From Methanococcoides methylutens MM1 (GTDB taxonomy: Archaea; Halobacteriota; Methanosarcinia; Methanosarcinales; Methanosarcinaceae): a stretch of 64,000 nt of DNA. A program made the translations under genes and the position numbers. The notes beneath the pieces are model-generated. The model was given only the letters and a program-made list of their open reading frames with translations, made no database searches and was not told the origin of the DNA. The stretch spans positions 1,364,001-1,428,000 of the forward strand of contig NZ_CP009518.1 of the NCBI RefSeq assembly GCF_000970325.1, read 5' to 3'. Positions 31,401-53,041 of this stretch are shown one piece after another (position 1 is the first letter of the stretch; each line of letters opens with the position of its first letter).

Positions 31401-32204
31401 ATGAACACCGACCAAAGAAAACAAACAATCAAGATCATCACAGCAGTAACGTTCCTGATAATGATCACCGTCAACGCACTGGCCAACATCCTCCCCATCA
31501 ATGACATCACCACCGGCCAGCTCTCAGACTCCTATCCCAATCTTTTTGCCCCTGCAGGAGCGACCTTTTCGATCTGGGGAATCATATATCTGTTACTGGG
31601 AGGGTACATCCTCTACCAGCTCGGCATTTTTCAGGGAAACACAACCACCGACAGGACCGAGCTCATCTATAAGATCGGAATCCTGTTCTCTGTATCTTCC
31701 ATTGCCAATGCATCCTGGATCTTCGCATGGCACTATCAAATAATCCCATTATCCATGCTGCTGATGATCGTGATCCTCATTTGCCTGATCCTGATAAACC
31801 AGCTGACAAGCAGGGAACAGTTTTCTGAAAGCGAATATTTCTTTATCAGGCTTCCATTTAGCGTTTACTTCGGATGGATCACAGTAGCAACCATTGCCAA
31901 TGCCACTGTACTCCTTGTCAGCCTGGGCTGGAAAGACTTCATTTTGAGTGACGTTTCCTGGACTGTGATAGTAATTGCTTTAGGACTTGTTATCGGCCTT
32001 GCAACCATGCTGAAGAACAGGGATGTTGCCTACGGACTTGTTATTGTCTGGGCTTATTCAGGAATATTGCTAAAGCACATTTCGACTGAAGGATTTGGGG
32101 GGCAGTATCCTGTGATTATCAATACGACGATTGGGTGTATTGGGTTGTTGCTTTTTGGTGTGGTTTATTTGTTGATTTCAAAAAGGAAAATGATGGGTGA
32201 TTGA
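31401..32204 (+). CDS. TspO/MBR-like membrane protein (intact copy A)
   Basis: The 267-residue protein has about eight membrane helices and resembles tryptophan-rich sensory proteins of the TspO/MBR group (FSIWGIIYLLLGGY and SSIANASWIFAWHY motifs near the first helices). Assignment to TspO is by resemblance and is moderate. ATG 31401 was used; GGGGGGT lies 10 bases upstream. From about 31649 to its end and ~25 bases beyond, it is nearly identical to the truncated copy at 34084-34664, and its last ~140 bases recur again near 42024. Confidence 0.6.
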   Translation: MNTDQRKQTIKIITAVTFLIMITVNALANILPINDITTGQLSDSYPNLFAPAGATFSIWGIIYLLLGGYILYQLGIFQGNTTTDRTELIYKIGILFSVSSIANASWIFAWHYQIIPLSMLLMIVILICLILINQLTSREQFSESEYFFIRLPFSVYFGWITVATIANATVLLVSLGWKDFILSDVSWTVIVIALGLVIGLATMLKNRDVAYGLVIVWAYSGILLKHISTEGFGGQYPVIINTTIGCIGLLLFGVVYLLISKRKMMGD

Positions 32205-32241
32205 AGAAAGGTGGGTTGGAGAGGGGTTAAAATATATTGAA

Positions 32242-32409
32242 TTACCTTGGACCAATACCAACTGCCATCATTATCATATAACTTCCTATTAGAATTAGTA
32301 TAGCCCCAGCACCACCCGCATACTTAAACTCTCTTTGAGACAACGCAAATCCCAATTCAAATATTGCATCTTTTTGGTTCTCTTTAACATCGAGTGAGTG
32401 AAACTCAGT
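32242..32409 (-). other. Possible small membrane peptide or gene remnant
   Basis: On the minus strand a frame runs 55 codons from a stop at 32412-32410 to TAA at 32244-32242. Its second half is strongly hydrophobic (KYAGGAGAILILIGSYMIMM), consistent with a single membrane helix. No ATG or GTG opens it before the helix, so it is either a truncated gene or chance. Its 5' part is one arm of the 17-bp inverted repeat. Confidence 0.25.
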
Positions 32410-32435
32410 TTACCCACACGATGTTAAAGAGAACC
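32376..32435. repeat. Perfect 17-bp inverted repeat
   Basis: GGTTCTCTTTAACATCG at 32376-32392 is repeated inverted at 32419-32435, with a 26-base spacer. It lies between the convergent TspO-like and AlbA genes. Length and perfect identity make chance unlikely; it may be a bidirectional terminator, an insertion scar or an element end. Confidence 0.7.
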
Positions 32436-32442
32436 ATGTTTT

Positions 32443-33870
32443 TCAATCCCCGATTTGCGAGTAATATTTTTGTTTTGGACTGCTTGGCTTGTCCGGAATT
32501 GTCATGTGAAGAGTGCCAGATTCAATTAGAGGTTTCAATATTTTTGATCGGAAATGTTCCCTATCTTTTAATTGTAAAAATTCCATTATTTCACTTGTTG
32601 TTCTAGGTTTTTCACAAAAGTCGATGATCAATTCCTGTTTTTCAGCCTGCTGGGTAGCCTGCTGGGTAGCCTGCTGGGTAGCCTGCTGGGTAGCTTGAGG
32701 AGTAACAGGAATAATCGTTTTGAAAATATCTCCTTCGATAAATTGTGTATCGTTACCTCCAGAATAAATTCTGGTATATTTATGGAGATTACGAACTCCA
32801 GAACCCAGTTCTTCCGCTCTACCGATCTCCTTGAAAAAGCGGGCAATTACCGGATTTTTAGGATAAGGGGTGAAGTTGGAAGGATTTATCAGTCCATGTC
32901 CGTGAGGACGGTTTCCGTTTTCGGTTATGACCTGGTCCTGTTCAATTATGAACTTTGCAGGGTAATTATTCAGGAATTCCCTGTGGATGAGTATGTTTGC
33001 AGCGACTTCCCTGAAAATGTTATCACGCAGGCTGATCCTCTGATCTTTTTCGAGATAAAACGGATCCGGCAAGTGCTTGGCAACAAAAGCCATCAGACGA
33101 TCGTAGCTCTCTATCAGGTTAGTGCGGATGTCATCCCGGTCATCATAACGATCAAGATTTACTCTTCGAAGGATTGCATCAGTTCGATATTGAGGAAGGA
33201 TGCTCTGGATCACTTCATCTTTTCCAAACAACAGGACTGCTGCCAGTGTGTAACCTTCTTTCCCGCTCTGGTAATCCCTCTGATACAAACGTGCACTTTT
33301 CAGAAGCTCTTCGCCAGTCATGACGCTCCATGGGTGATTTGGGTTTTCTGCACGGACCATCTTTCTTACCCTTTGGAAGAGATCACTTCTGAGATCTTCC
33401 AGCCTTACGTAAGGATAAATCCGATTTTCAGAGAATGAGCTCTGTTTTCGGATGTACAAATGAGCCACAGCATCAGACTGATTGGTTATATTCATATCCC
33501 CGTCTTCGTTCCTGTCAAATATCTTCCCATTACAGGAATGAACCTGAGAGCTCTCAGGAATATTCAGGTAAAGAACGATCTTCCCGTTGATCTCAAGCGT
33601 TTCCGGCAAAATATAGAGAGGAGGATTGATCTTCTGCGGATTGTTCAATGCGGTTACGAGGTCCTTTTTGATCTGTGGCAATGCATCAACGTCTATTCCC
33701 GTAATTGTCCCGTCATCCCGGACTCCAAGAACAATATGCCCACCATTTCGGTTTAAGAATGAACAAATGCTGTCATACACATCCTTGTTCAACTTACTCC
33801 TGGATTCTTTAAATTCCACAGTAAGCCCTTCACCATCCCTGATGATGCTTTTCAATTGCTCCGAGATCAT
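32443..33870 (-). CDS. AlbA_2/Schlafen-type ATP-binding protein with HATPase_c_4 and winged-helix tail
   Basis: The 475-residue protein has an N-terminal AlbA_2 (divergent AAA-4) domain, with VEFKESRSKLNKDVYDSICSFLNRNGGHIVLGVRDDG, and a central C-terminal RecG-like HATPase_c_4 region (REVAANILIHREF, then ELGSGVRNLHKY). A linker of four ATQQ repeats joins it to a winged-helix end. Such proteins are DNA-binding regulators or defence-associated ATPases. ATG 33870 was chosen because GAGG lies six bases upstream; ATG 33876 has its ribosome binding site too close. Confidence 0.85.
   Translation of the reverse strand: MISEQLKSIIRDGEGLTVEFKESRSKLNKDVYDSICSFLNRNGGHIVLGVRDDGTITGIDVDALPQIKKDLVTALNNPQKINPPLYILPETLEINGKIVLYLNIPESSQVHSCNGKIFDRNEDGDMNITNQSDAVAHLYIRKQSSFSENRIYPYVRLEDLRSDLFQRVRKMVRAENPNHPWSVMTGEELLKSARLYQRDYQSGKEGYTLAAVLLFGKDEVIQSILPQYRTDAILRRVNLDRYDDRDDIRTNLIESYDRLMAFVAKHLPDPFYLEKDQRISLRDNIFREVAANILIHREFLNNYPAKFIIEQDQVITENGNRPHGHGLINPSNFTPYPKNPVIARFFKEIGRAEELGSGVRNLHKYTRIYSGGNDTQFIEGDIFKTIIPVTPQATQQATQQATQQATQQAEKQELIIDFCEKPRTTSEIMEFLQLKDREHFRSKILKPLIESGTLHMTIPDKPSSPKQKYYSQIGD
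32645..32692. repeat. Four perfect tandem copies of a 12-bp unit inside the AlbA gene
   Basis: GCCTGCTGGGTA is repeated four times without a mismatch. It is in frame and encodes the ATQQ repeats of the linker, so copy number can change by multiples of 12 without frameshift. Confidence 0.9.
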
Positions 33871-34083
33871 GATCATCCTCTTTTTATTATTACTTGCTTT
33901 CCCATCCGAATTATCTTACTCAATAACTCAGCTGGAACTTTAAGGGATTATATTTTGAAAGTATGGATATTGTGTGTTCTTAGATATTATTAACGTTTTT
34001 CTTGTCCTGACCTCAACAGCAAAACAGATGTAGCAAAAACAAATCACAAACTCAAACACCCCTTAAATCTTTAATTCCCCATA

Positions 34084-34664
34084 CGACAGGACCGAGCTCA
34101 TCTATAAGATCGGAATCCTGTCCTCTGTTTCTTCCATTGCCAATGCATCCTGGATCTTCGCATGGCACTATGAAATAATCCCATTATCCATGTTGCTGAT
34201 GATCGTTATCCTCATTTGCCTGATCCTTATAAATCAGCTGACAAGCAGGGAACAGTTTTCTGGAAACGAATCTTTCTTTATCAGGCTTCCATTTAGCGTT
34301 TACTTCGGATGGATCACAGTAGCAACCATTGCGAATGCCACTATACTTCTTGTCAGCCTGGGCTGGAAAGACTTCATTTTGAGTGACACTTCCTGGACTG
34401 TTATAGTAATTGCTTTAGGACTTTTTATCGGCCTTGCAACCATGCTGAAGAACAGGGATGTTGCCTACGGACTCGTTATTGTCTGGGCTTATTCAGGAAT
34501 ATTGCTGAAGCATACTTCGACTGAAGGATTTGGGGGGCAGTATCCTGTGATAATCAATACGACGATTGGGTGTATTGTGTTGTTGCTTCTTGGTGTGGTT
34601 TATTTGTTGATTTCAAAAAGGAAGAGGATGGGGTATTGAGTGAAGTTGGGTGGGAGAGGTATTC
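34084..34664 (+). pseudogene. 5'-truncated TspO-like copy B
   Basis: From CGACAGGACCGAGC at 34084 the sequence is nearly identical to 31649 onwards, missing the first ~83 codons. It stays open to TGA at 34639 and the similarity continues ~25 bases past it. The first ATG inside (34190) would start a protein in the middle of a membrane helix, so a functional product is unlikely. Upstream (34046-34083) lies CACCCCTTAAATCTTTAA, similar to the sequence before the UvrD-like gene (near 27130-27150), perhaps a shared promoter type. Confidence 0.85.
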
Positions 34665-34836
34665 AGTAAATCACAAAGTAGAACTGATCTGGAGACACCT
34701 GACCAACTGGCATCTATTACCTAACCTGAACCACTGATAAAATATAGTTGAAACTGATAAAAAATAAAATATATTTTTAACAATAGGCTATTAAAGGAAA
34801 TAGGCTTTCTACACAGCCATATTATACTAATTAAAT

Positions 34837-37800
34837 TTAAGCAAAGCTTTCATCATTGGTTTTTTCTATAAACGCTGATATTTTCTGCATATGCACAGGT
34901 GTATAATACATGTGTTTCATCTGCCCTGCAACCACTACGTCAACTATATAATAATCACCCATTCTCTCTTCAACTTCTTCAGGAGCAACTTCATAGTTCA
35001 GGACTTTTTCAGCTATTTCTAAAATATTAGTCAAATCTCTTTGGGGATGATGTTTCATCAAAGCGTGGCAATTAGGACATAAACAAATAACATTAAACTC
35101 CATATTTGCCCAATCATGAGTGTTTTTTGCCTCAACCAACCTAAAAATTTCAAAATATGGTTGCTTATTAGAACCTAAATTTAATTTTGTATTACAAAGC
35201 TGACAATTTCCATTGTATTGTTCAAGCAAAAAATATTTTGGGTCAATTGAATCGATTATTTTACTAGTTTTTATAATCTCCTTTTTTTGTTGAATTTTAG
35301 TTTTATTAAAACGATCAGAAAGTTTTCCCCCATAATTTTCACGAACGGAATCTTCCTCATCTGGAGATATACTAGACCAACCTAATTTTTCATCATCTTC
35401 GACAGATGACTCCAGTCCTTTAGTAAGCGATTTTTCAAATTTATTTCTAATTTCAGAGGCTGATGATTTCTTCGAATTATCTTTGATTTCATCCATTGAC
35501 CTTATGAATTCTATAACTTTCTTTCTTTCACCATCAGTAAATTTTCGTGATTGTATTTCTGAAATGATTTCTCCAATTTCTGGATATTTCTCTTTCAAAT
35601 ACTGCTCCGCTTGTTGTTCAAATCCGCTTTTAAAATTAAGTTTTTCTGCAAGAGCTTTTGCGTCTGAACTTTCTGTTTCGAATTCTTTTGGTAAATCAGA
35701 GAGCATCAATTCAGATGTATTGTGGAATTTATGATCTTTGTCTGGAACCCAGGAATTTTCAATTAACAAGTCCCCAGATTTAGAGTATTTTTCTGATTTT
35801 GTAGAATTAGAATACTCTTTACGAGTTGAAGTTTCAACAATTCCAGAGATGTTTTTATAATTTTTCTTTAAAAGATTCCATAAAATAATCGCTTTCTCGA
35901 CAGTAATGCTGTTCAACGCAAATTGTAAACCTTCAATTTCAAAATCTGGATCAAAGCCATCTAAACCTCTTTTATGCCATCCATGTACATTGCAAATTGT
36001 TACATACCCATTCCAGCTAGAACTTCGACATTTATTATCTATTTTAGATATGCACCCCAACTTATAATAAAAAGTTATGTCAATGTCAAGATCAGAATAT
36101 AGATCATCTAAAATCCAGATATCTGGATTTCCTTCAAAGAAGATATCAATATCCTTGTTACCTGTAAATAATTCACCAAGATAAATTTCAGAAGGTTTTC
36201 GAAATGAAATATCTCCAGTACAGATATTTCTTGCATATAATATTGGAGTTAATTTTAATGCATCTAACAATTCTTCTGTTCTTTCTGAATCTGCTGGTGA
36301 CATTATCGTACTTGAAATCCACTCTATATGCTGTAGATGCTCTTTTTCATTAATTGATGAAATCGAATTGCAGCTATATAAAGGTAGTATTATATCAAAC
36401 ACTCCCGCCACTTTGTCAGGTTTCAACAAACCTAAATTTTCTAAAAATTCCTTTGCTTTTGAATCATTAGCAATTTCATCTTTGATTGTAGGGAAACGTT
36501 GTCTGAATTCAGAGGGAAAGTAAGCATTTGGTTTACCATTATTATCAAAAGGGGTCACATGTGCATCATTATCTAATCTAATAATATTCTTAAAAAGAAG
36601 GGGTCCTTGAGAATAATAGCTCTTTTTCCAGAGTGCTTTTTGATCTAGAAGAAAAGCATAGAATTTTTTGATCCAATCATCAGACTGTTTTTCAATAAAT
36701 TTTACAGAAAAATCCCTTGAAAATTTGTCAGGATCAATTTCAGGAATTGAAAGTTCATCTACCAAATAAGTTTTAAGTAGGGGAGTCTTATCTTTTGTTA
36801 TACTTCCATCAAGCCATTGAAGATTCTCATGACGCAACAAAATGCTAAGCTGGGTTGAAGATAACAGTTCTCTTAATGATTGTGTACTTGCTAATACTGA
36901 CTTTGCTGCAGTTATATATCCCCCGCTATATGAAGGAAGGAATGCTTCTTCACCAAGTAATTTTTCTTTTACTTTTTGAAATACAGGTAAAAACGTAGAA
37001 TCATCTTCGAATGTTTCGGCATCTAAAGGAAGAGTTTGCAAAAATGATAAGTCAAGCAAATCCATTTCTTTAACTTTACTTAAACTTTCAGCAGTAAGAA
37101 TAGCAATTTCCTTAATTAACAATTTATTCCAGTCGTTTTTGTAGATATTATCTCTAGAAGTCGTTGTTTGAAAGTCTCCCTGAATAAGAAAATTAAGATC
37201 TGTTTTTTTCTCAGTGGGGAAAAAAACTACCAAATTAGTGTCATTAGCTGGAACAATATGTTCTTTTTTTGACTTTTTATTAGTTTGAACTAAATATGCA
37301 ATTTGTACAGTTGATTTTTTTCTATCTTCAATAGAAATTGTTTTGCTAAATTTGAGCCATTTTTCTCTACTTTCTATATTTATGTTTGATTCAGAATATA
37401 GACTGATCCATGAAAACAAAGATTCATCATTTGATTTTTTGTAATATTTTCCATCTAATCCATCAACTTTCCAAGTAATTTCATCTATGTTTTTTAGAAA
37501 TAAGAGTGTTCTTAAACCCAAATTAGTTAATTTAGACTTTATCTCCAAATATGACTCATTAGAATCAATAGTATCATTGTTAAAAGGTATGATAAAAAGA
37601 GTTTGATCACTTTTCACATCATATCTTTGGTCTATTAAATGTGGGTGAACATAATTATTAATGCAGAAACAGTAATCTCCACTGTACACTTCTGGAGATT
37701 TTGTGTATGCATAAACAGATTTAAAACCAATACCAAACTTTCCGATTTGAGATATATCTTGCCTTTTAGTTCCTCTAGCTAGTCTACAAATTCCTTTAAT

Positions 37801-38061
37801 ATCTTCTTCATCAAATGGTATTCCATTATGACGAACCTCTAATCGATTAGGATATAATTCAAAATGAACCGATTTGGGATGTTTAGATTCTTTTTTCCCT
37901 AACCTCTCATAAGCATCTTCGGCATTCTGGAGAAGTTCATAAATGAAATGGGTTTTTTCACTATAGAGCTCTGTCAGCAATGTAGGTCCATATTCATTAA
38001 CAGCCGTACCATAAAGTCCAATATTTTCGTCCCTTATAAGATCATAAATGGTATCGTTCAT
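34837..38061 (-). CDS. GHKL (sacsin-like) ATPase fused to a C-terminal HNH endonuclease
   Basis: The 1074-residue protein starts with a GHKL ATPase domain (~1-200): LLQNAEDAYERLGK is the N-box, and QIGKFGIGFKSVYAYT the G2 box. The G1 box reads HNGIPF, a degenerate form of DxGxG. A long, mostly unassigned middle (~300-930) has no motif I can name. The C-terminus (~953-1000) is an HNH nuclease: CQLC...CPNCH with the VEAKNTHDWANMEFN active segment. The start ATG overlaps the helicase stop by 4 bases (ATGA), so the two genes are translationally coupled. Sacsin-type GHKL domains with nuclease ends occur in defence islands. The gene is A/T-rich. Confidence 0.85.
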   Translation of the reverse strand: MNDTIYDLIRDENIGLYGTAVNEYGPTLLTELYSEKTHFIYELLQNAEDAYERLGKKESKHPKSVHFELYPNRLEVRHNGIPFDEEDIKGICRLARGTKRQDISQIGKFGIGFKSVYAYTKSPEVYSGDYCFCINNYVHPHLIDQRYDVKSDQTLFIIPFNNDTIDSNESYLEIKSKLTNLGLRTLLFLKNIDEITWKVDGLDGKYYKKSNDESLFSWISLYSESNINIESREKWLKFSKTISIEDRKKSTVQIAYLVQTNKKSKKEHIVPANDTNLVVFFPTEKKTDLNFLIQGDFQTTTSRDNIYKNDWNKLLIKEIAILTAESLSKVKEMDLLDLSFLQTLPLDAETFEDDSTFLPVFQKVKEKLLGEEAFLPSYSGGYITAAKSVLASTQSLRELLSSTQLSILLRHENLQWLDGSITKDKTPLLKTYLVDELSIPEIDPDKFSRDFSVKFIEKQSDDWIKKFYAFLLDQKALWKKSYYSQGPLLFKNIIRLDNDAHVTPFDNNGKPNAYFPSEFRQRFPTIKDEIANDSKAKEFLENLGLLKPDKVAGVFDIILPLYSCNSISSINEKEHLQHIEWISSTIMSPADSERTEELLDALKLTPILYARNICTGDISFRKPSEIYLGELFTGNKDIDIFFEGNPDIWILDDLYSDLDIDITFYYKLGCISKIDNKCRSSSWNGYVTICNVHGWHKRGLDGFDPDFEIEGLQFALNSITVEKAIILWNLLKKNYKNISGIVETSTRKEYSNSTKSEKYSKSGDLLIENSWVPDKDHKFHNTSELMLSDLPKEFETESSDAKALAEKLNFKSGFEQQAEQYLKEKYPEIGEIISEIQSRKFTDGERKKVIEFIRSMDEIKDNSKKSSASEIRNKFEKSLTKGLESSVEDDEKLGWSSISPDEEDSVRENYGGKLSDRFNKTKIQQKKEIIKTSKIIDSIDPKYFLLEQYNGNCQLCNTKLNLGSNKQPYFEIFRLVEAKNTHDWANMEFNVICLCPNCHALMKHHPQRDLTNILEIAEKVLNYEVAPEEVEERMGDYYIVDVVVAGQMKHMYYTPVHMQKISAFIEKTNDESFA

Positions 38062-41000
38062 AATTGCTCCCCAACTTTAATGTGGACAATCGCTTCTAAA
38101 TTATAATCAAGTGATAATTCCTGACGATGCTGAAGTTCTTTGATTTTGCCCATATGTTTTGCTTTTTTACTATCAATTCTCCCTTTCATTAGACGCATAA
38201 ATCTTTCATCTGGTTTTTCCCCCTCAGCACTTTGTTTTTCAATATGTCTTTGTAAACTATTTTGTAGTTTTTCGACTTGTTTCTCACAGGATTCTGTCAA
38301 AGCGGTTATTCTACTATCAATTTTAAAGCGGTTTTCTTCCGAAGCGACACGACGTTTTTCTTCCAGAATTTCATCGAGATAATCTCTTGCGACTTCCAAT
38401 AACTCATAAACATCAATGTATTCTGATTCAATTGTTGGATTTTCAATTGAGTCATAAGCTAACAAGCGAGGGATTTTTTCAAATGAAGTTTCATAAACAG
38501 TTTTTGTATTGATATTCACTGGCAATCCTAAAAATTCAATCTCAGTTCTTAAGCCCTCCATACGTACTTCAAATAAAAATACAACATATTCTCCATTGAG
38601 AATATATGATTCAGATGGATTAATACTGAATCTAAATATCTTATATAATGCCTTTTCTTTTTCTAGTTGATGTGTCAAAAATCTTGACCAATATCCAGTA
38701 GGTGAAAGAAATATGTGATCTAGGCAAGTTTCTGCAAGCTGACCATCAAAAACAACTTTCACAGAACTTTTGGTATCAAACAATGCTTTAAGTTCATTGA
38801 AAGTCCCTTCGTTCCCTGGTTTTCTTGAAAATGTTTCTAGTTGGGTAATGATAGTAGGAGATAATTTTATAATGGCTCTACTTTCATCAAGTTTATCAAA
38901 ATTGCAATTCTCATGCATCAAAAGATAAGTTCGTGTTAAATCCATCGCATCGGATGGGCTGACGAAATCTCCTTTAGATATACTATTTATTGGTTTGACA
39001 AGATAATCGTCACCTAATAATTCAGTTCTATATTTTTCAAATTGTTCATATTCTGCTTTTGCTGCCTCAATTGCTTCCTGCAGACGTTGAGACATTTCAT
39101 CTTTTTGTTCATCAGAAAGGTTTCCAGAGATTATTGCCGTTTGAATATCAGCAATTTCTTTACCCATTATAGGTTCAAATGCGCCGATGCCTTCTTCCAC
39201 TAGATTGATTCGACGATAGAGACGATCATATATCTCTTCATCAACTGAATTTTTAATGAACATGTTTCCAACAATTATCTTATCGGCATTCTGTCCAAAT
39301 CGATCAATTCTCCCAATCCTCTGCTCTATCCTCATCGGATTATATGGAAGGTCGTAGTTGAAAATTGCATGACAGTACTGGAAATCGAGTCCTTCACCAC
39401 CGACTTCACTGGAAAGAAGAATATCATATTTCCCTTTTTCAAATGAATCCATCGTCTGAGACCTGTCAATGTCTTCTTTATTTTTCGCCACCTGCGAAAT
39501 TTTTCCATGAATAATTCCAACACTATACCCATCCTTTTCAAGACTTCTTTTCAGATGTTCCAGTGTCTCGACAAAAAATGAAAAAACTATAACTTGAGGA
39601 GTCTCAGGATTTAGAATTATCTTATCTAGCATCTTCTTAAACTGAGAATATTTGCTGTCAATATGGCAAATTTCCTCCAGTTCATCTAATAGCATTTGAA
39701 AATTCACTTTGAGGGACGGAGACAATATGGTTTTGTTAATTTCTGAATCATCTTCATATTCATTAATCTCGGATAAACTGGGTATATCAAAAACTCTATT
39801 ATCTCTTATTGAAGCTTCAAGGTAGTTTTTCATGGCTGGAATGCAGCTACTTATCATCCTGCGGTATGTATTTGTAATAAACCCGAGAATTTGTGGATCC
39901 CTTCCCATGGACAAATAATAATTCTGTATTACTTCTAATGCATGATCTTGAAACCTCAGTTCTTTATCCGAGAGGGTGACTGGTAATTCTAGCACTTCTC
40001 TATGAACCTGATGCTCTAACGCCTCTCTTTTACGAGTTCGTGTAAATGAATAACTGAGTGGGTTTAATGACACTAATAATCTGTCATACCTTACCAACTC
40101 TTCAGGAGAAAGAATCTCTTCCTTATTTAGCCTCTGAATAAAGTCAACAATCTCTTCGTGTTGCGATATTATTTTACCCAAAGGATCGCTTGCAAGCTCC
40201 ACAAATTGAAAAACGATCTCAGATCTCTTTTCAACTGTGTTTTGAGATAATAAACGTCTTATTCGATTTATTATAACAACCGGTCTGTATAAAGCTTCAA
40301 ATGTTGCCCGATCTGGAAAAGCAACTTTGTTAAGAATATGCATTTGATTGTACAAATCATCGCTACTGAGATTCAAAGGTGTAGCTGAAAGCATGAGCAT
40401 CATTTCAGCCATATCACTCAACGCGCTTCCCAATTTATTGCTGTCGGTATCAGGATTTCTCATATGATGTGCTTCATCGATTACAACTAAATCAAATGTT
40501 GCCGCTTCTCTCCTCGAATCCAATTCGTTTAAGAGATCGAGATATTCTTTTCTCCTGAATAGTTGTAAACCAACTATAGAAAAAGCATATTTTCTTGGAA
40601 AAATACCATCTTGTATGGCACTGTTCAAGACATAGCTAAGTTTTTTACCATCGAGTACTTCGAAGTCTAAAAAGAAACGCTCTTTCATCTCCCGTGCCCA
40701 TTTTTGGGTAAGGGAATTCGGGCAGACTATTAATATAGGTGTACTATGTGTCAATCTTTCTCTTGCAAGCATTTCAGTTACAATGATTCCCGTTTCAATG
40801 GTTTTGCCTACTCCAACCTCATCGGCTATGAAAAGTCTTTCATCAGAGTTAGGAGATATAAACTTTAACAAAGGCTTGAATTGATACGGATTAAAAATCG
40901 TTTTACTACCCAGATAACTGTAAAGATTACTTTCAAGTGGTTTGGAGAGCCGAAACCATGTTTGAAATATTTTATATTGAGAACTGTCTCCTAATTCATC

Positions 41001-41711
41001 TTGATAAAAATTCTCAAGAATGTCATCTTCTGGGTCTGAATACAGCTCTAGATACTTTTCAGCGAATGTACGTGTTTTCCCATCTACCGTCACCTGGTAA
41101 GAGAAATCTCTCGAACCTTTAATTACTTTATTAATAGTTCCAATTTTTCTTGTACTGGTCACTATTACATTGTTTCCTGCCTCAAAAATGGGTTGTTTGG
41201 ACATCGAATCCACCTCGATAAATTGATCTGTTTTCTGGGATTTTACCCATAAGCCTTCAAAGTTTGAAATTAATTTTATAGCCTCAGGATCATTTACTCT
41301 GTGAACAACAGACGAGGCAAATTCAATATTTTTGAAGAAACCAGATGCTGTGACATTAACAGAGCCAATAACAGCTTTAACTTCATTATCTGTACGAAAA
41401 ATATAATTTTTACTATGAAAAAATTCTTCACTTGAATAAATACGTGCTTCTACGCCAGGAAGTTCCAAAATTTGATTCAATATCTCAAATCGTTTCTCAG
41501 GAGTTGGAGCGAATCTATCACTCAATAATATTTTGATGTTTATATCGTGGTTCACTATTGAGTTTGCCAGAGTATGAGATAATCTCTTAAGAAAATCTAC
41601 CCCATAAGATCCAAAGTAAGCTGAAGAGATAGCACATTCAATCGCCCCTCTTGCAATCGCTAAAATTTCATCTTCCCAATCAGCTGAGATATACTTGAAA
41701 TTTTTAATCAT
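38058..41711 (-). CDS. PLD-domain SNF2-type helicase
   Basis: The protein has 1217 residues. Residues ~1-160 are a phospholipase-D-type domain with His99, Lys101, Asp108 and GSVN at 116-119: one complete HxK(x)D(x)GSxN half-site, as in single-motif PLD nucleases. The helicase follows: Walker A DEVGVGKT at 297-304, DEAH at 412-415, then RecA2 motifs with SSEVGGEGLDFQ and RIEQRIGRIDRFGQ. The C-terminal ~300 residues are a coiled-coil tail. It is the first gene of an operon with the GHKL-HNH gene. A PLD-linked helicase fits DNA cutting coupled to translocation. Confidence 0.9.
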   Translation of the reverse strand: MIKNFKYISADWEDEILAIARGAIECAISSAYFGSYGVDFLKRLSHTLANSIVNHDINIKILLSDRFAPTPEKRFEILNQILELPGVEARIYSSEEFFHSKNYIFRTDNEVKAVIGSVNVTASGFFKNIEFASSVVHRVNDPEAIKLISNFEGLWVKSQKTDQFIEVDSMSKQPIFEAGNNVIVTSTRKIGTINKVIKGSRDFSYQVTVDGKTRTFAEKYLELYSDPEDDILENFYQDELGDSSQYKIFQTWFRLSKPLESNLYSYLGSKTIFNPYQFKPLLKFISPNSDERLFIADEVGVGKTIETGIIVTEMLARERLTHSTPILIVCPNSLTQKWAREMKERFFLDFEVLDGKKLSYVLNSAIQDGIFPRKYAFSIVGLQLFRRKEYLDLLNELDSRREAATFDLVVIDEAHHMRNPDTDSNKLGSALSDMAEMMLMLSATPLNLSSDDLYNQMHILNKVAFPDRATFEALYRPVVIINRIRRLLSQNTVEKRSEIVFQFVELASDPLGKIISQHEEIVDFIQRLNKEEILSPEELVRYDRLLVSLNPLSYSFTRTRKREALEHQVHREVLELPVTLSDKELRFQDHALEVIQNYYLSMGRDPQILGFITNTYRRMISSCIPAMKNYLEASIRDNRVFDIPSLSEINEYEDDSEINKTILSPSLKVNFQMLLDELEEICHIDSKYSQFKKMLDKIILNPETPQVIVFSFFVETLEHLKRSLEKDGYSVGIIHGKISQVAKNKEDIDRSQTMDSFEKGKYDILLSSEVGGEGLDFQYCHAIFNYDLPYNPMRIEQRIGRIDRFGQNADKIIVGNMFIKNSVDEEIYDRLYRRINLVEEGIGAFEPIMGKEIADIQTAIISGNLSDEQKDEMSQRLQEAIEAAKAEYEQFEKYRTELLGDDYLVKPINSISKGDFVSPSDAMDLTRTYLLMHENCNFDKLDESRAIIKLSPTIITQLETFSRKPGNEGTFNELKALFDTKSSVKVVFDGQLAETCLDHIFLSPTGYWSRFLTHQLEKEKALYKIFRFSINPSESYILNGEYVVFLFEVRMEGLRTEIEFLGLPVNINTKTVYETSFEKIPRLLAYDSIENPTIESEYIDVYELLEVARDYLDEILEEKRRVASEENRFKIDSRITALTESCEKQVEKLQNSLQRHIEKQSAEGEKPDERFMRLMKGRIDSKKAKHMGKIKELQHRQELSLDYNLEAIVHIKVGEQL

Positions 41712-42017
41712 ATGAAGATTCCAGCAAGTTTATACAACAATTTGAAATTATTTGATTATATATAATATTTTATTGAGAGATTTGCATTATCAAATAAAAT
41801 CCAACGATTAAAAAGCCTCTTTTCTAGACTAAACTAATCAGTGAAAATTTTAATAATAAAGACACCTGTTTATGTTTGAACTACAAATAAAAATTTATAC
41901 CCTATTTTGTCTAAAAAGTATTTAAAATTTATGACATAGTTATCTTTGAATTCATATGGGCAATTCAGTTATCAGCCATCAGAAATTACACCATCACTTT
42001 CGAATTATTATGGAATT
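41712..42017. other. A/T-rich spacer upstream of the helicase operon
   Basis: No ORF of credible length was found. The minus strand should hold the promoter of the helicase/GHKL operon; several A/T boxes (for example near 41760-41775) are possible TATA elements, none decisive. Confidence 0.4.
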
Positions 42018-42163
42018 GCAACATTTGGGTATCAGTATCCTGCAATTATTAATACAACGATTGGGTGTATTGGGTTGTTGCTTCTTGGTTAGGCTTATCT
42101 GTTGATTTCAAAAAGGAAGAGGATGGGGCATTGAGTGAAGTTGGGCGGGGGCGGGATTCAAGA
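42018..42163 (+). pseudogene. TspO-like 3'-end remnant (copy C)
   Basis: From about 42024 the sequence matches the last ~140 bases of the TspO-like gene, including CAGTATCCTG, ACGATTGGGTGTATTGGGTTGTTGCTTCTTGG and the tail GATGGGGCATTGAGTGAAG. It differs from copies A and B by an in-frame TAG (GGTTAGGCT) in the last helix, so it is dead. The end abuts the mcrC stop. Confidence 0.85.
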
Positions 42164-42164
42164 T

Positions 42165-43196
42165 TCATGCTATTATTTCTAACAAATCATTCTTGATGTA
42201 ATGCCAATCCTGATTGAGATTTATTGACATTATCCTGATCCTGTGATTTTCGTAATTGTAACAAAAACTAAAGTTACTCTCAACAGCTGGATATAATAAA
42301 ATTCCTTCACACGATTTGGTGATTTCCGACTCTGATTCTTGATTTTTCAGGTAGGAGAACAACTGATATAGGTTATTTGAATTTATTTTTTCTTGCGAAA
42401 ATCTGGTCTTAAGAGCTTCTTTATAGTATTTGGTATCAATTATTATTTTTCTTGAAGCCGATTGCAATGAAATATCAGTAATCATTATTGGCAACATTGA
42501 TAAATCATTTTCATTTTCAGATGTTAATTTCCAGTTTATCTCTTCGATTTTTACATTGAATTCTGATTGTTCAATTTTATAGAAATTTCTAACAAATGAC
42601 TCAAACAATCTTGCCATTGCCTTTTCTTCTCGCAAGAAATCTTTAAATTTGTAGTCTCCTGATGATTCATCAATAAACAAATTCTCATTGATAATCTGAC
42701 ACACTTTCAGTGAAAAATCATAATTGTAATTGTTTCTATGTAATCTGATTTGTTTAAAATGAGAATTCCTAATTTTAATTTCTGAAATTGGAGGGAGTTT
42801 AATTAGAAGTCTATGTAATTCATCTTTTAGTTCTCCATCGAGGTGATTTATCCTCAGAAGATTAGAAATTGTTGTTTTCAAAATCTGGTTATGTAAAATA
42901 TCATAATCAAATTCGTCATATACACAAACTGTTTTACTTGAATGAAGAGTATTTCTTTTAACAGAAGCAGAAAGATCTAATTTTCCTTTTATTCCATTTA
43001 CAACGTATTCATTTTCAACGTAATAACGATCTAAACCCTGTTTTAATAATCTTGATGTACTATTAATTAGGATTTTAGCAAATAGATCGATAAGCTCGGT
43101 GCTACTGATTGCTCTAACATCGACAATATCGCTTTCATCAAGCTTATTCCAAGCATAACATAAAAGATAATAAAGATTTTCAATTGGAATTGGCAT
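42165..43196 (-). CDS. mcrC: McrC-like component of the McrBC restriction system
   Basis: The 343-residue protein starts PIPIENLYYLLCYAW, as McrC proteins do. Its C-terminal half is a PD-(D/E)XK nuclease with IIDTKYYKEAL carrying the catalytic Asp and Lys; the first Asp is in the TDISL strand before it. McrC is the nuclease partner of McrB and cuts DNA with modified bases. The gene starts 8 bases after the mcrB stop in the same operon. Confidence 0.9.
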   Translation of the reverse strand: MPIPIENLYYLLCYAWNKLDESDIVDVRAISSTELIDLFAKILINSTSRLLKQGLDRYYVENEYVVNGIKGKLDLSASVKRNTLHSSKTVCVYDEFDYDILHNQILKTTISNLLRINHLDGELKDELHRLLIKLPPISEIKIRNSHFKQIRLHRNNYNYDFSLKVCQIINENLFIDESSGDYKFKDFLREEKAMARLFESFVRNFYKIEQSEFNVKIEEINWKLTSENENDLSMLPIMITDISLQSASRKIIIDTKYYKEALKTRFSQEKINSNNLYQLFSYLKNQESESEITKSCEGILLYPAVESNFSFCYNYENHRIRIMSINLNQDWHYIKNDLLEIIA

Positions 43197-43204
43197 GTCT
43201 CTGA

Positions 43205-45763
43205 TCAGTCTAATAAACGATTTATCGCAGCTTGAGACTTTTCTATATCATCAAACCAGTATTCTTCTAAAAGAGGCTGAATTTCGTAATTTACGATATC
43301 TTCAAACCATTCATTTTCAGATTTGTCTTTCTTATTGTTGCAGAAAAAGCTGTGGCCTATCTGGAAACCTTCTCCAAGATTCTTATCGGACTTTATTTTT
43401 CCATTCAAAGAGTTGATCTTTGAAATCATATTGTCTACAAAACCTTTTGAAAAACTTTGTGAGATAAGCAAATCAATAAATTTCTGATTAAACTTTGGTC
43501 CTAATGGAATAAACCTGAACCTTCTTCTCAAAGCATAATCAACGATAGCGAGCGAACGATCAGCAGTGTTCATCGTACCGATCAAATAAAGATTTTCAGG
43601 AACAAAAAACGCTGCATCGTCTTTTTCAGAATAAGTTAAATGCACCTTATACTTACCCCGCTTGTCGGTTTCTATCAACATCATCAATTCTCCGAAAATC
43701 TTGCTAAGATTTCCTCTGTTGATTTCATCAATGATGAAGAAATACTTGTTATCAGGATCATTCTCTGCTTTTTTGCAAAAATTGTAAAAAATACCGTTCT
43801 TTACTTTAAAGGTATTTCCTGATGGCCGAATACCCTGAATAAAGTCTTCATATGAATACGATTGGTGGAACTGAACCATTTCAATTTTTGTATCATCGGT
43901 ACTCTTCATAATTTCATAAGCAATTTTTTTGGCGACAAAGGTTTTGCCTACACCTGGAGGACCCTGCAATACAACGTTCTTCTTAATTTCAAGTGCATCT
44001 AATATAGTCTTAAGTTCAGAATCTTCAATAAAAGGTTTCTCAGGATCTGTAGAAAATGAATATTCTTTGATATCGATTATTTCTTTTTCTAATTCGTTAT
44101 TGATATTCCTTTCATCTATAAGATCCCTAATAATATCAAATTCTTCAGCTGTCAAGCTGAATAAGCTTCCTTGATTATTTTTAATAACTTCACAGTCTTC
44201 TAGCCCTTTTGTTTCCTTTAGATCATCCCAGGTAATGGTATCTGTGACTAATTCCTTTATTTCAAAACTGATTATTTCGTCTTCGTTCTCATCGTTATGT
44301 AGCCCCTCCACAATTTCAAATATTCCTTTGATTTGCTTAACAGGCGTACTTTCATAACCAATTACAAGATCTCCCGGTGCCACCTCTTCGAAATATTTGT
44401 ACACCCTTCTTTTGTTGCCTTTGCTATTATGGGATGTATAGGACTGGATATCCCCTAACTCATAGCTGTCAATTTTCCAGATTTTTGGATTTGCATTTAA
44501 CCACCAATAATTTTGAGTCCCATAATCACTTGGCAATACTTTTGTGGGAGGGAGAGTCTCTTTTCCAGCTTCTAATTCATCAAATATTTTTCTATAAGAA
44601 GCATCGGCATCGATATATTTTTCTTTAATTCTTTCCCATTTAAGAGTTGGCGAAAATGTATCTGCTCTAAAAATAGTTTTCTCAAAATCGATTTGTCGAT
44701 TTATGAGCCATTTTACTTTCCTAATATGTTTATATTCAGTTCTTTCATCATCAAAAACATATTCTCCTTCTATTACTCCAATTCCCAAACATTTTTTTCT
44801 GCCTTTGTTAGCAACAATTATATCACCAATACTTGCATCACGAAAACTTTCAATATTCCAGATCTGATTGGAAATGGAAGAATTCTCAACATTCAAAGTT
44901 TCAGCAAGTTCCTCAGTTGTATATTTATTGAGATCTCCTAGCCCATCCCAGCCTATTGCAATTATGCCTTCTTTATAAAACTCATCCCAACGGCTAGCAT
45001 TTTCACCAGGCGCAAATTTCCAATAATCAATAAGTAAATTGTTTTTATTTGCAGCCTCTTCTTTTGAGGATTCCAGTTGTTCAATAACCTCTTCGATAGT
45101 ATTAAACTCATCAACTGTATTGGAAGCTTTATCATTTATATCCGAGCCAGGAGCGATTCCAGCTTCCATAATTTGGTCATGGATACGTAAAAATAATTGG
45201 TAGGATTTGCGATGAGACACCCTTTTTTTAGGAAACAAAGCAATCCAGGAAGAGGAAGCACCGTAATTTTGTGCCCCTTCGAATCCAACAATGTGCTTTT
45301 TGTAGAATTCTAATTTCAGCGTATTCATTAGCTCTTCTGCGATGTTTTCAAGAGCATTATCGGATTCTTCTTCATCTGCTGATCGATAAAAGAATGGGAA
45401 AAGAATACTGAAATATTTCGCCCAGTTCACGAAAGGGCTTTTCTTTTTTTCAGGATAACGAATCAATCCGTTTAATATTGATTCATCATATTTCGAAAAG
45501 TAATCTGTATCTTTTGCAATTATTTTCTCTTTAATAAATTCGATTAATTCAGTTGTTACTGTATTCTTATATTTTATATTGTTCAATATTTCAAGACGCA
45601 AAAGATTTACTGGCTGGAATCTGTCACGCGTATAGTGATTAATAAGTTGATCTACAATTTCAGAGTCAAGGTCATTTAATTGTTCGAAAAGATAACTTTC
45701 ACTTTCTTCTAGCTTTTTTAACCTTTTAGCATGTCCCTGAATAATATCAATCGATTCTTGCAT
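43205..45763 (-). CDS. mcrB: McrB-like GTPase with two PUA/EVE-type modified-base readers
   Basis: The protein has 852 residues. The first ~240 residues are helical with no clear assignment. Two modified-base-reading modules follow: ~245-390 (YWKFAPGENASRWDEF and later GDIIVANKG), and ~420-500 (NYWWLNANPKIWKI, GDLVIGYESTP), of EVE/PUA type. The AAA+ GTPase starts about 590: Walker A GPPGVGKT (~601), Walker B FFIIDEINRG (~675), and MNTADRS (~731), the McrB GTP signature. ATG 45763 was chosen because GGGTG lies five bases upstream. Confidence 0.92.
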   Translation of the reverse strand: MQESIDIIQGHAKRLKKLEESESYLFEQLNDLDSEIVDQLINHYTRDRFQPVNLLRLEILNNIKYKNTVTTELIEFIKEKIIAKDTDYFSKYDESILNGLIRYPEKKKSPFVNWAKYFSILFPFFYRSADEEESDNALENIAEELMNTLKLEFYKKHIVGFEGAQNYGASSSWIALFPKKRVSHRKSYQLFLRIHDQIMEAGIAPGSDINDKASNTVDEFNTIEEVIEQLESSKEEAANKNNLLIDYWKFAPGENASRWDEFYKEGIIAIGWDGLGDLNKYTTEELAETLNVENSSISNQIWNIESFRDASIGDIIVANKGRKKCLGIGVIEGEYVFDDERTEYKHIRKVKWLINRQIDFEKTIFRADTFSPTLKWERIKEKYIDADASYRKIFDELEAGKETLPPTKVLPSDYGTQNYWWLNANPKIWKIDSYELGDIQSYTSHNSKGNKRRVYKYFEEVAPGDLVIGYESTPVKQIKGIFEIVEGLHNDENEDEIISFEIKELVTDTITWDDLKETKGLEDCEVIKNNQGSLFSLTAEEFDIIRDLIDERNINNELEKEIIDIKEYSFSTDPEKPFIEDSELKTILDALEIKKNVVLQGPPGVGKTFVAKKIAYEIMKSTDDTKIEMVQFHQSYSYEDFIQGIRPSGNTFKVKNGIFYNFCKKAENDPDNKYFFIIDEINRGNLSKIFGELMMLIETDKRGKYKVHLTYSEKDDAAFFVPENLYLIGTMNTADRSLAIVDYALRRRFRFIPLGPKFNQKFIDLLISQSFSKGFVDNMISKINSLNGKIKSDKNLGEGFQIGHSFFCNNKKDKSENEWFEDIVNYEIQPLLEEYWFDDIEKSQAAINRLLD

Positions 45764-45923
45764 TTTCGCACCCACTCTGAAAATTGATCATACAGTAATT
45801 ACCACTATTAATATCGTTATTGTAAGAATATATTTAAGATTAAGATTGGCAGCCAAGATTAAGCAAATCGTTCTTTGTTTTGATTTATTCAATCAAAATA
45901 TACACTCATTGAACATATGATAG

Positions 45924-45942
45924 ATATTCTCAATGAGAATAT
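45924..45942. repeat. 8-bp perfect palindromic stem (ATATTCTC - AAT - GAGAATAT)
   Basis: The sequence lies in the divergent spacer between mcrB and the cas1 remnant, about 160 bases upstream of the mcrB start. It may be a regulator's operator; no binding data exist. Confidence 0.3.
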
Positions 45943-45968
45943 ATATTTTCCTATTTTTGATCACTTAA

Positions 45969-46420
45969 AATTCATTGATCTTGAATATGTGCTCAAATAG
46001 CATAGACAAGAAGGACTCCATTAGGACAGAGAATTATTCAATGAAGCTCAGGCCCAGTGGGGCTAAGAAACTGACTGAAGAAATCAGTTGGTGGTTCAAT
46101 AAAAGAGTTAGATATCAAAACAAAATCCAATGTGGAGCTATGTTATTCTCCTGAAAGCTAGAGAATTAGCTTATTATTTGACTGGTAAACGAAAAGAAAT
46201 CGACTTTTTGGAACCACAATATACGACAAAACGACAGGATTCAAGCGACATGCGACAGAAGATCCTCAGTATATCGTATTCTGATTGGAAAAAGCTAGGT
46301 TTTTCAAAAGGAACATTACATTATATGAAGAAAAATGCCGAAGCTGATAAGCATTTTATGCTTAATGCACATGTAAGAGAACGCTTGAATCAATGGGAAA
46401 AACTTGTCGCAAACGGTTAA
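45969..46420 (+). pseudogene. cas1: cas1 3'-end remnant with one frameshift
   Basis: Joined across one shift near 46131-46134, the two frames give ~150 residues like the C-terminus of CRISPR-associated Cas1. The first frame, open from 45969, ends ...RYQNKIQC; the second (ATG 46130) goes on WSYVILLKARELAYYLTGKR, then LGFSKGTLHYMKKNA and the end. One lost base (TGT-TGG to TGT-GG) explains the break. The first ~200 residues, and the catalytic part, are missing. Upstream is a stop and no cas gene. It marks a lost CRISPR-Cas locus. Confidence 0.75.
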
Positions 46421-46528
46421 TTATGTGTTGTTTTTTGTCGTTTTATCGTTTTTGTGTCGTTTTTCTATGTAAATTAAGCGACAATTTCAGACGACAAAAA
46501 CGACAGATTAAGCGACATTAAAACGACA
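46224..46528. repeat. Dense cluster of CGACA pentamers (12 in ~305 bases)
   Basis: CGACA on the plus strand starts at 46224, 46232, 46246, 46253, 46479, 46492, 46501, 46513 and 46524. Its reverse, TGTCG, starts at 46405, 46436 and 46455. A block at 46223-46257 in the cas1 end, ACGACAAAACGACA..., recurs at 46491-46528. Chance would give less than one in this length. No spacers of CRISPR type lie between them. Confidence 0.6.
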
Positions 46529-46794
46529 AAACAACAGATTCGGGGACAAGAGACACATTCTCAGGAAACAAATGAGACAAGTTTAAATATTGAATAGTAG
46601 CTTGGACAAGTACAAGATGTATAAATTCAAAATGTGTATTATTCGAACCATTTGGATAAAAATATTTATGCTAATTCTTATTCAGAAATAAAAGAGAGTC
46701 TTAGATTTTTTAAAGTTGTAATGAACCGTTTGTCTTATGTCAACAAGTAATCAGGTTCAAACTTAAATATCTAGGGAACAATAAGTGGAGCAGA
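46421..46794. other. Spacer between cas1 remnant and methyltransferase operon
   Basis: There is no ORF worth reporting in this 374-base stretch. It holds most of the CGACA cluster (up to 46528), then A/T-rich DNA with a TATA-like CTTAAATAT at 46762-46770, about 30 bases before the D12 methyltransferase ATG. Confidence 0.5.
46762..46770 (+). promoter_or_regulatory. TATA box of the methyltransferase operon
   Basis: CTTAAATAT lies about 25-33 bases before the ATG at 46795, giving a nearly leaderless transcript; a GGAG lies 4 bases before the ATG. Confidence 0.5.
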
Positions 46795-48069
46795 ATGAAT
46801 CATTTTAGCCAAGCGTTTGAAGGAAAACAACACATGAACATGAATTCTCCCCTACCTATGCAGTATTTAGGTTCAAAAACTAGAATATCTAACTGGGTAG
46901 TAAGCAATATAAAAGATAGTTTTCCATCATCTACAACATTAATTGATTTATTTGGCGGTTCTGGAAGTATATCATTTTCAGCTTTAAAATATGATTATAC
47001 ATTATATATTAATGATGTACAGCCATATTCATATATAATTTTAAAATCAATATTTTCAGAAAGCAGAGATGGTTTAAAAGAATTAGCAAATGATATTTTG
47101 AAACTGAAAGATGAAAAATATCTATTAAGAAACTCTCGAAGTGATGCGAGAAACTTATTGGAAAAAGAAACGATTTTATTCAATAAGCATCAAGATAAAT
47201 CATTAGATTGGGTAGAGTATAAAGAATTCTGTGAAACAACCCCACTATTGTCTGGCAATAAAGAAGAAATAATGAAATTAAGAAAAGACAACGATTGGAA
47301 CCTTTTTTTTAAATATTATGCCAACACATATTTTGGAATAAAACAATGTTTAGTCTTGGACAAACTAAGAGAGTATGCAGAAGGGCTAAGTCCTAATTTA
47401 AGATGTCATCTTATAGCATCAACTATTTCGGTGATGACTTTTGCAGTGTCAAGTACTACTCATTTAGCTCAGTTTCTAAAACCAACGTCAAAAAAGCGGG
47501 TAGACAATCTTATCAATAAAAGAGATATTGATATTATAGACAAAGTATCAGATAGGCTTAAACAACTATCTAAGTCACCGCTTCCAAAATATACTTCAAC
47601 TATCCTGAATCTTGATTTTAAAGATGCACTTTGCAATATAGATCTAAATAAGAACTCAATTGTTTATGTAGATCCTCCATATTTCAAAGAACACTATTCA
47701 AGATATTACCATGTCCTTGATACTTTCTACTTATATGATTATCCCCATCTAACCATCAATCCAAGGATTAATAAAGTTACAATAGGTAGATATCGTGAAG
47801 ACCGTTTTGTAAGTGAATTTGGATTAAAAAGTAAGGTTAAAAAAGCTTTTGAAAATTTATTTGACTTATGCTATGAATGTAAAGCTAACATTGTATTAAG
47901 TTATGCAGATACATCTTTACTAAAAAAGGAAATAATTCTTGAAATTGCAGAAAATTCTGGGTACAGGGGCCATGTTAAACAAAAAAAGTTAATGCATACT
48001 GGGCAAGGACAGCCTAGAAACAAAAAAGTAATAGAATACCTCTATTTTTTTGAACCAAATGGGGATTGA
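46795..48069 (+). CDS. D12-class DNA N6-adenine methyltransferase
   Basis: The 424-residue protein has the Dam/D12 order: MQYLGSKTRI near residue 22 (SAM-related motif X), LIDLFGGSGSISF at ~49 (motif I), then the target-recognition segment and VYVDPPYF near residue 300 (motif IV). It methylates adenine N6 in a defined sequence. Length is greater than Dam, with an extended recognition region. GGAG lies 4 bases before the ATG. The next gene overlaps its end by 11 bases. Confidence 0.88.
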   Translation: MNHFSQAFEGKQHMNMNSPLPMQYLGSKTRISNWVVSNIKDSFPSSTTLIDLFGGSGSISFSALKYDYTLYINDVQPYSYIILKSIFSESRDGLKELANDILKLKDEKYLLRNSRSDARNLLEKETILFNKHQDKSLDWVEYKEFCETTPLLSGNKEEIMKLRKDNDWNLFFKYYANTYFGIKQCLVLDKLREYAEGLSPNLRCHLIASTISVMTFAVSSTTHLAQFLKPTSKKRVDNLINKRDIDIIDKVSDRLKQLSKSPLPKYTSTILNLDFKDALCNIDLNKNSIVYVDPPYFKEHYSRYYHVLDTFYLYDYPHLTINPRINKVTIGRYREDRFVSEFGLKSKVKKAFENLFDLCYECKANIVLSYADTSLLKKEIILEIAENSGYRGHVKQKKLMHTGQGQPRNKKVIEYLYFFEPNGD

Positions 48070-49702: not shown

Positions 49703-49713
49703 AGGTAATAGAT

Positions 49714-52068: not shown

Positions 52069-52258
52069 TAAGTGATTTGTATGTTAATTAGATATAATCT
52101 ACTTATATTAAAAAATAATTATTTTTATGGTTAGTGAATAAACATGAGTAAATGTTTTTATAATTCCTAACTATCTAAAATTCTGAGTATCTATTTCTCA
52201 GGATACCTATTACCCAACATAAATATGCAGGAAGAGTAATTCAAACCCCCCACCTCCC

Positions 52259-52291: not shown

Positions 52292-53041
52292 ATGCAAGAA
52301 CTCCTCACCCTCCTGCAAAACTCAAAATACTGCGTCATCCTCACCGGCGCAGGGATATCCACGCTTTCAGGCATACCGGACTTCCGGGGGAAAGACGGGA
52401 TCTATAACAAGTTCGATGCGGACCTTATCTTTTCAATAGACTACTTCAACGAGGATCCTTCGTATTTTTATACGCATTCCAGGGAACTGATATATGATCT
52501 TGAGAGGAAGGAGCCGAACATCATTCACAAGGCACTGGCAGAGCTTGAGAGGAGGGGGATCGTTAAGGCGGTGATCACGCAGAACATCGATATGTTGCAC
52601 CAGAGAGCGGGGTCTGAGAACGTTATTGAGGTTCACGGGTCTCCGGCGAGGCATACGTGTCTTGCATGCGGGAAAAAGTATTCCTTTGAGGAGGTTGTGG
52701 GGCTTCTTGAGAAGGAAGAGGTTCCCATGTGCAATGAGTGCGGGGGGCTGATCAAGCCGGATGTTGTGTTCTATGGGGAGATGCTTGAGCATGATGTGAT
52801 CGAGAAGGCCATTGAGGAGAGTTCCCGGGCAGACCTTATCATTGTGCTGGGATCAACGCTGGTGGTTCAGCCGGCGGCTACGCTTCCGTTGTATACCCTT
52901 GATCACGGCGGAGAGCTTGTTATTGTTAACAACATGCCGACTCCACTCGATGATTATGCCAGGAGCAGGTATGACGACCTTGTGGAGGTATTCAACTATC
53001 TGAATGAGGAAATGGGTCTTAATATTTCAGAACATATATAA
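52292..53041 (+). CDS. cobB: Sir2-family NAD-dependent protein deacylase
   Basis: The 249-residue protein has GAGISTLSGIPDFRG at ~19-33 (NAD-binding), QNIDMLHQRAG and EVHGS with the catalytic His, a zinc site (CLACGKKY and CNECGGLI), and LIIVLGSTLVVQPAA. It removes acyl groups from lysines with NAD use, for example from chromatin protein Alba or metabolic enzymes in archaea. It has its own TATA box and no ribosome binding site. The base composition rises sharply in GC here against the island. Confidence 0.93.
   Translation: MQELLTLLQNSKYCVILTGAGISTLSGIPDFRGKDGIYNKFDADLIFSIDYFNEDPSYFYTHSRELIYDLERKEPNIIHKALAELERRGIVKAVITQNIDMLHQRAGSENVIEVHGSPARHTCLACGKKYSFEEVVGLLEKEEVPMCNECGGLIKPDVVFYGEMLEHDVIEKAIEESSRADLIIVLGSTLVVQPAATLPLYTLDHGGELVIVNNMPTPLDDYARSRYDDLVEVFNYLNEEMGLNISEHI

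Follow-up and report, generated by a model that had tools for sequence, protein, structure and literature searches.

The association of a GHKL ATPase with an SFII helicase and a nuclease has been a known theme since Iyer et al. 2008 (PMC2292703). In the MORC and paraMORC operons described there, a GHKL ATPase gene lies beside an SFII helicase, one class of which is SWI2/SNF2. The nucleases of these mobile, restriction-like operons include HKD/PLD and HNH enzymes. RapA-like SNF2 architecture is found in BrxHII and the BREX-related PLD–SNF2 helicases (PMC12839542), and the type-2 BR systems of the same work carry an effector of HKD plus Swi2/Snf2 composition. In the GHKL Shedu protein VcSduA, the GHKL domain is proposed to gate the nuclease, and both are needed for defence (PMC12137116). 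Finally, in type II and III CoCoNuT systems the motor system is conserved while its effectors, HEPN, PLD or Vsr, replace one another (PMC11090510).

Here we describe a gene pair that resembles each of these in part. It lies in a 64-kb stretch (1,364,001-1,428,000; hereafter the window) of the 2.39-Mb, single-contig genome of Methanococcoides methylutens MM1. Both genes are on the minus strand. P1 (38058..41711), a PLD–SNF2 protein of 1217 aa, was delineated by its open reading frame and by Pfam, PADLOC and NCBIfam matches; P2 (34837..38061), a sacsin/Hsp90-type GHKL protein of 1074 aa with an HNH-like tail, by its reading frame, Pfam and Foldseek. The two frames share four bases, an ATGA stop/start overlap (38058..38061, minus strand) indicative of translational coupling. 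Both frames and the overlap, read from 38061 to 38058, had been reported correctly in an earlier note on this DNA.

P1 starts with a one-half PLD nuclease domain, an optional head (residues 1-165; 41217..41711, minus strand). Pfam PLDc_2 matches it above the gathering cut-off over residues 45-155 (E 7e-8); RE_NgoFVII matches more weakly (E 2e-5). By inspection, the HxK ... GSxN signature of PLD/HKD nucleases falls inside the domain as H99-K101...G116-S-V-N119 (41355..41417, minus strand), and H99, K101, G116, S117 and N119 sit exactly where the earlier note had placed them. The Asp108 that it also listed is present, but in a non-canonical spacing (HxK-x6-D-x7-GSxN), and the Bacteroidales homologue does not preserve it; the Glu behind GSxN (E130) is conserved. 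Ahead of the motor lies a stretch (residues 172-235; 41007..41198, minus strand) that is conserved among relatives and at which their conserved helicase part begins. Going by the architecture of RapA and BrxHII, it may be Tudor/SH3-like. The SNF2 translocase core (39132..40904, minus strand) displays a Walker A motif from residue 297, DEAH and QRIGRIDR. It is recognized by Pfam SNF2-rel_dom (2e-20) and Helicase_C (2e-22), and the solved structure nearest to P1 is RapA (E 1e-29).

P2 matches the Pfam sacsin family, SACS (E 8e-18), and its sole NCBIfam match is the domain model 'sacsin N-terminal ATP-binding-like'. The SACS match, invariant residues and Foldseek together delimit an Hsp90-like ATPase and middle domain at residues 28-340 (37042..37980, minus strand), marked by E42, N46, D49, H78, GxxGIGF and R303. 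With the full P2 model, the top Foldseek matches are Hsp90/TRAP1 (E 7e-13), across the N-terminal and middle domains. Residues E42, N46, D49, G107, G110, G112 and R303 are invariant. In sequence register, without superposition, E42, N46, D49 and the glycines correspond to Glu33, Asn37, Asp40 and the glycine motif of Hsp90, and R303 may be the equivalent of an arginine reported in the middle domain of sacsin (PMC9880540). The position of Hsp90 Asp79 is taken by His78 in P2 and by Asn in sacsin (PMC9880540).

The two genes recur side by side. The closest pair lies on a plasmid of Methanomethylovorans hollandica, of the same family (80% and 66% identity); plasmids of Rhizobium and Ensifer carry it at about 25% identity, without PLD. 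We used the GHKL alignment to scan genomes of bacteria and archaea and kept the best 80 of 383 relatives, so that the fractions given here are not prevalences. Of the 77 non-edge loci examined in a first set, 31 have an SNF2 gene adjoining that for the GHKL protein. Loci with an SNF2 neighbour on the same strand, as detected with phmmer, number about 30 and come from Chloroflexota, Nitrospirota, Desulfobacterota, Cyanobacteria, Actinomycetes, Bacteroidales and others. RapA/DrmD-like SNF2 and GHKL pairs occupy more than 30 loci, in about 12 bacterial phyla and several archaeal families. Six further archaeal pairs come from genomes of the same phylum (loci L120, L121, L164, L165, L166 and L167) and, with that of M. 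hollandica, bear out the adjacency in other archaea on which the earlier note had made its proposal depend. Four-base overlaps are seen again in L031, L052, L054, L080 and L164. The distance matrices of the two partners correlate (Mantel r 0.57, 0/5000 permutations, n 28). As judged from sequence, the two genes genuinely form a conserved unit, and the recurring two-gene unit without a known label that had been surmised is present in many unrelated genomes.

Its occurrence is patchy: a close pair is found in 2 of 186 genomes of the order and in none of the 10 congeners searched. Neighbouring genes elsewhere include those of type I R-M, Mad, Azaca and DISARM-like systems; not every pair locus sits among defence genes. 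Viral contigs hold two distant GHKL relatives and phages one, none of them seen to carry the pair. No constant third gene emerged. L029, L030, L044 and L084 alone have an extra gene between SNF2 and GHKL, for a protein of about 210 aa and unknown family, and the two copies tested gave no Pfam match. A small gene upstream of the Rhizobium and Ensifer pairs was likewise set aside as a component; the Rhizobium copy has no Pfam match.

The N-terminal head of the helicase is exchangeable. Among 29 helicases, 2 have a PLD head, 11 a HEPN head and 16 no recognised head, the last number including L101, which begins at a contig edge. The PLD bearers are P1 itself and the Bacteroidales protein of L026, 54% identical to each other. 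HEPN heads are of the Swt1 type, with the motif RNRW(A/V)H in every member inspected; three further HEPN helicases in archaea, left out of the helicase tree, bring the HEPN relatives to 14. The closest relative, the M. hollandica helicase, lacks PLD: its start corresponds to residue 171 of P1. We looked for a decayed PLD upstream of it and discarded the idea, as the region scores no better against the window's PLD than shuffled sequence. In the helicase tree, PLD belongs to a clade with headless archaeal forms and HEPN to a separate bacterial clade. These two main clades lie far apart, and a common mechanism is therefore an assumption. Moreover, the effector is not always visible, since a recognisable nuclease head is missing from several relatives, some of which have no intact HNH either. 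The PLD–SNF2 fusion highlighted by the earlier note is thus real at this locus, but its PLD is a replaceable part, with HEPN or nothing in its place elsewhere, and not the conserved one. Since the head is optional, we take SNF2 and GHKL, and not PLD and HNH, as the defining pair.

The C-terminus of P2 (residues 940-1070; 34852..35244, minus strand) is, from Foldseek and alignments, an HNH-like treble-clef domain in which the catalytic His is replaced: the H-N-H positions read R974, N990 and H999. An AlphaFold2 model of the last 197 residues has a mean pLDDT of 79. Its top Foldseek matches are all HNH proteins (TagI, Cap5, Cas9 HNH, PtuB), at weak E-values of 0.02-1 (best 0.018), so that the call of a ββα-metal fold, as in HNH nucleases, rests on consistency across matches. 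The label 'GHKL-HNH protein' therefore stands for the GHKL domain (SACS) and for the fold of the tail, but not for the catalytic His. Arg is also found at the R974 position in M. hollandica (L020) and L026; other SNF2-paired relatives have Tyr, Glu, Ala or further residues. The tails of L120 and L121 keep an intact His-Asn-His, those of L092, L096 and L098 keep the His with Asp instead of Asn, and the zinc ligands are gone in L052, L054 and L101. All five His-keeping relatives are headless, and the His occurs in none of the aligned PLD or HEPN bearers. The pattern, behind which stand few independent lineages, is suggestive of one nuclease per system.

The tail accompanies the SNF2 partner. It is present in 29 of 29 complete SNF2-paired GHKL proteins and in 2 of 45 unpaired ones (Fisher p 1e-18, uncorrected for kinship), and one of these two adjoins another pair. 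After correction for kinship, 4 of 6 independent contrasts agree and none opposes (p 0.125), the contrasts being too few for significance. Unpaired GHKL relatives end instead in a DUF3883/NOV_C tail with a conserved GFD...EVK; Pfam finds no NOV_C match in P2 or in the set of 29 relatives. A related haloarchaeal-type GHKL protein of 1561 aa (L168, 3884-8569) has an intact HNH_2 and no SNF2 partner in the 16-kb stretch examined.

At its locus the pair occupies a 7.4-kb cassette of its own. Three direct repeats (31649-32224, 34084-34659 and 42023-42160), 81-94% identical, are copies from the 3' part of the membrane-protein gene at 31401-32204. Copy 2 (34084..34659, plus strand; 576 bp) is 94% identical to copy 1, and copy 3 (42023..42160, plus strand) is a 138-bp fragment of the 3' end of the gene. 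Between copies 2 and 3 lie exactly P2 and P1 (34666..42022). A second cassette, between copies 1 and 2, holds a Schlafen gene alone (32443-33876), encoding an AlbA_2 protein with a Fic-like C-terminal domain. The surroundings form a hypervariable defence hotspot (32235-52230), from the membrane-protein gene to the Sir2 gene. In four congeners the Sir2 gene (at 52292 in the window) follows the same membrane-protein gene within 3-10 kb; the intervening genes differ among them, and two retain a short stretch from the end of the mcrC of the window. One hotspot congener (L134) has an SNF2-type helicase operon between the two flanking genes. Because the repeats bracket exactly P2 and P1 and the congeners hold different genes there, the simplest account is arrival of the pair as a cassette of its own. 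The repeats differ about as much as species do, which suggests that import was stepwise, through recombination at the membrane-protein gene.

Other genes of the hotspot were considered as partners and rejected. At 42165-45775, mcrC adjoins a gene whose McrB-type product has an EVE domain and, in addition, a PDC-S02-like N-terminal domain; these McrBC genes share the strand of the pair, yet 453 bp and a repeat copy lie between. Further on (46795-52068) come a Dam-like methylase and two proteins resembling N6/N4 methylases, of which the latter carries a fused Mrr nuclease domain. They are on the opposite strand and not constant in relatives. Rfam has no match within 30000-54000. DUF1998 is indeed absent from the island, as the earlier note had it: the genome's only MZB/DUF1998-type match, in a frame of 948 aa, is at a distance of about 240 kb.

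How does the pair compare with described systems? No PADLOC or NCBIfam model covers it. For Hma, which the earlier note had named as an example of a known system to compare, HmaA is a weaker SNF2 match to P1 (7e-38), and neither P2 nor its neighbours match HmaB or HmaC among the PADLOC matches listed; what PADLOC does return are partial matches, DrmD for P1 and TmtA for P2. As in MORC and paraMORC operons, a GHKL ATPase adjoins an SFII helicase with a nuclease. Unlike in those operons, P2 is a sacsin/Hsp90-type ATPase, the nuclease forms an exchangeable head at the helicase N-terminus, and there is no constant methylase, Vsr or separate nuclease gene. P1 resembles the type-2 BR effector, but BREX-related PLD–SNF2 helicases accompany an N6-methylase and other BREX-related components, with no mention of GHKL/Hsp90 (PMC12839542). 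VcSduA differs as a single protein with a DUF4263 nuclease and without a helicase, and CoCoNuT by its unrelated core of McrBC-family GTPase and another helicase. No account of a GHKL–SNF2 pair of the sacsin type came up in the open full-text library that we searched, which takes in few subscription papers. The pair is very likely an unnamed defence module.

We propose, with a probability of about 0.6, that P1 and P2 act as one NTP-driven antiviral module, in which an ATP-gated motor unleashes a swappable nuclease. Once invader nucleic acid is engaged, the Hsp90-like P2 dimer, acting with P1's SNF2 translocase, would close on ATP. The moving motor and the closing clamp would gather or release the head at the helicase N-terminus, here a half-site PLD needing dimerisation and in relatives a HEPN RNase, and the released head would cut nucleic acid. 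The HNH-like tail would mainly be a zinc-supported structural or coupling domain tied to the SNF2 partner and would have lost its catalytic role here. As the unit has no methylase, self-protection would probably come from a trigger that responds solely to an infection signal (abortive, or dependent on structure or modification) and not from DNA marking. Of this picture, the domains, their pairing, the exchange of heads, the missing HNH His and the limits of the cassette are read from sequence; association of the two proteins, gating, target and the defensive role itself are inferred. In the wider version, which we consider somewhat better than an even bet, the pair would represent a widespread two-gene immune system: Hsp90-like ATPase and RapA-like SNF2 motor as constant sensor, PLD or HEPN head as replaceable killing enzyme, and the ATPase's HNH demoted to coupling.

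Direct DNA restriction is conceivable but unlikely. Here the motor would translocate on foreign DNA and the PLD head cut it, like an ATP-dependent type I/III subunit, with specificity from DNA features or island methylases. Fusions of PLD to an SF2 helicase serve for restriction in several described systems (PMC10853773; PMC12839542), P1's PLD resembles RE_NgoFVII, and methylase genes lie 5-10 kb away; however, the cassette contains none, none constantly adjoins relatives, and pure DNA cutting leaves unexplained that the commonest head is HEPN, known examples of which mostly cut RNA (PMC3710099). The two active nucleases, PLD and HNH, envisaged by the earlier note draw on the HNH-like fold of the tail and on archaeal L120 and L121, which retain H-N-H. 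We regard them as highly improbable, because Arg974 stands for the general-base His, in both nearest relatives too, and that His is absent from nearly all SNF2-paired relatives; the position varies in the family, and in three members even the zinc ligands have disappeared.

Each protein might instead work as its named family, P2 as TmtA of Tiamat and P1 as DrmD of DISARM. The PADLOC scores speak for this: TmtA (PDLC03972) matches P2 at E 1e-74 and DrmD matches P1 at E 1e-117 (residues 188-1185). Yet the TmtA match involves only the N-terminal part of TmtA and covers residues 27-789, that is, the shared sacsin-type ATPase and the region following it, and stops there; the listed TmtA models are 1063-1782 aa long, and where unpaired relatives have their DUF3883/NOV_C tail P2 has the HNH-like one, besides a conserved SNF2 neighbour. 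Against NCBIfam DrmD, P1 reaches 318 bits, about half the cut-off of 610, with the PLD/HEPN head outside the match; DrmA, DrmB (the DUF1998 protein) and DrmMI do not adjoin it, DrmA and DrmB being absent among the tested neighbours. A Tiamat or DISARM variant is accordingly a poor candidate. Still less probable is a housekeeping or stress role, as a RapA-like transcription recycler with an Hsp90-like chaperone: it would suit the RapA match and the Hsp90 fold, but not the patchy occurrence, the hypervariable hotspot, the nuclease heads or the plasmid carriage.

Should the pair be the NTP-driven antiviral module proposed above, genes now annotated 'helicase-related protein' and 'sacsin-like/hypothetical' would become one definable archaeal and bacterial defence family, which PADLOC and NCBIfam models currently miss. 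It would offer a clean test of Hsp90-type ATPase control over a DNA motor and of why DNA-type (PLD) and RNA-type (HEPN) nucleases interchange on a single sensor. Sacsin-type ATPases of prokaryotes are also relevant to how sacsin, a human disease protein, originated. Among the unpaired relatives, L067 (5128-16070) and similar loci hold another unnamed-looking set, in which a DUF3883-tailed GHKL protein has a UvrD–PD-(D/E)XK protein on one side and genes of type III R-M-like character on the other.
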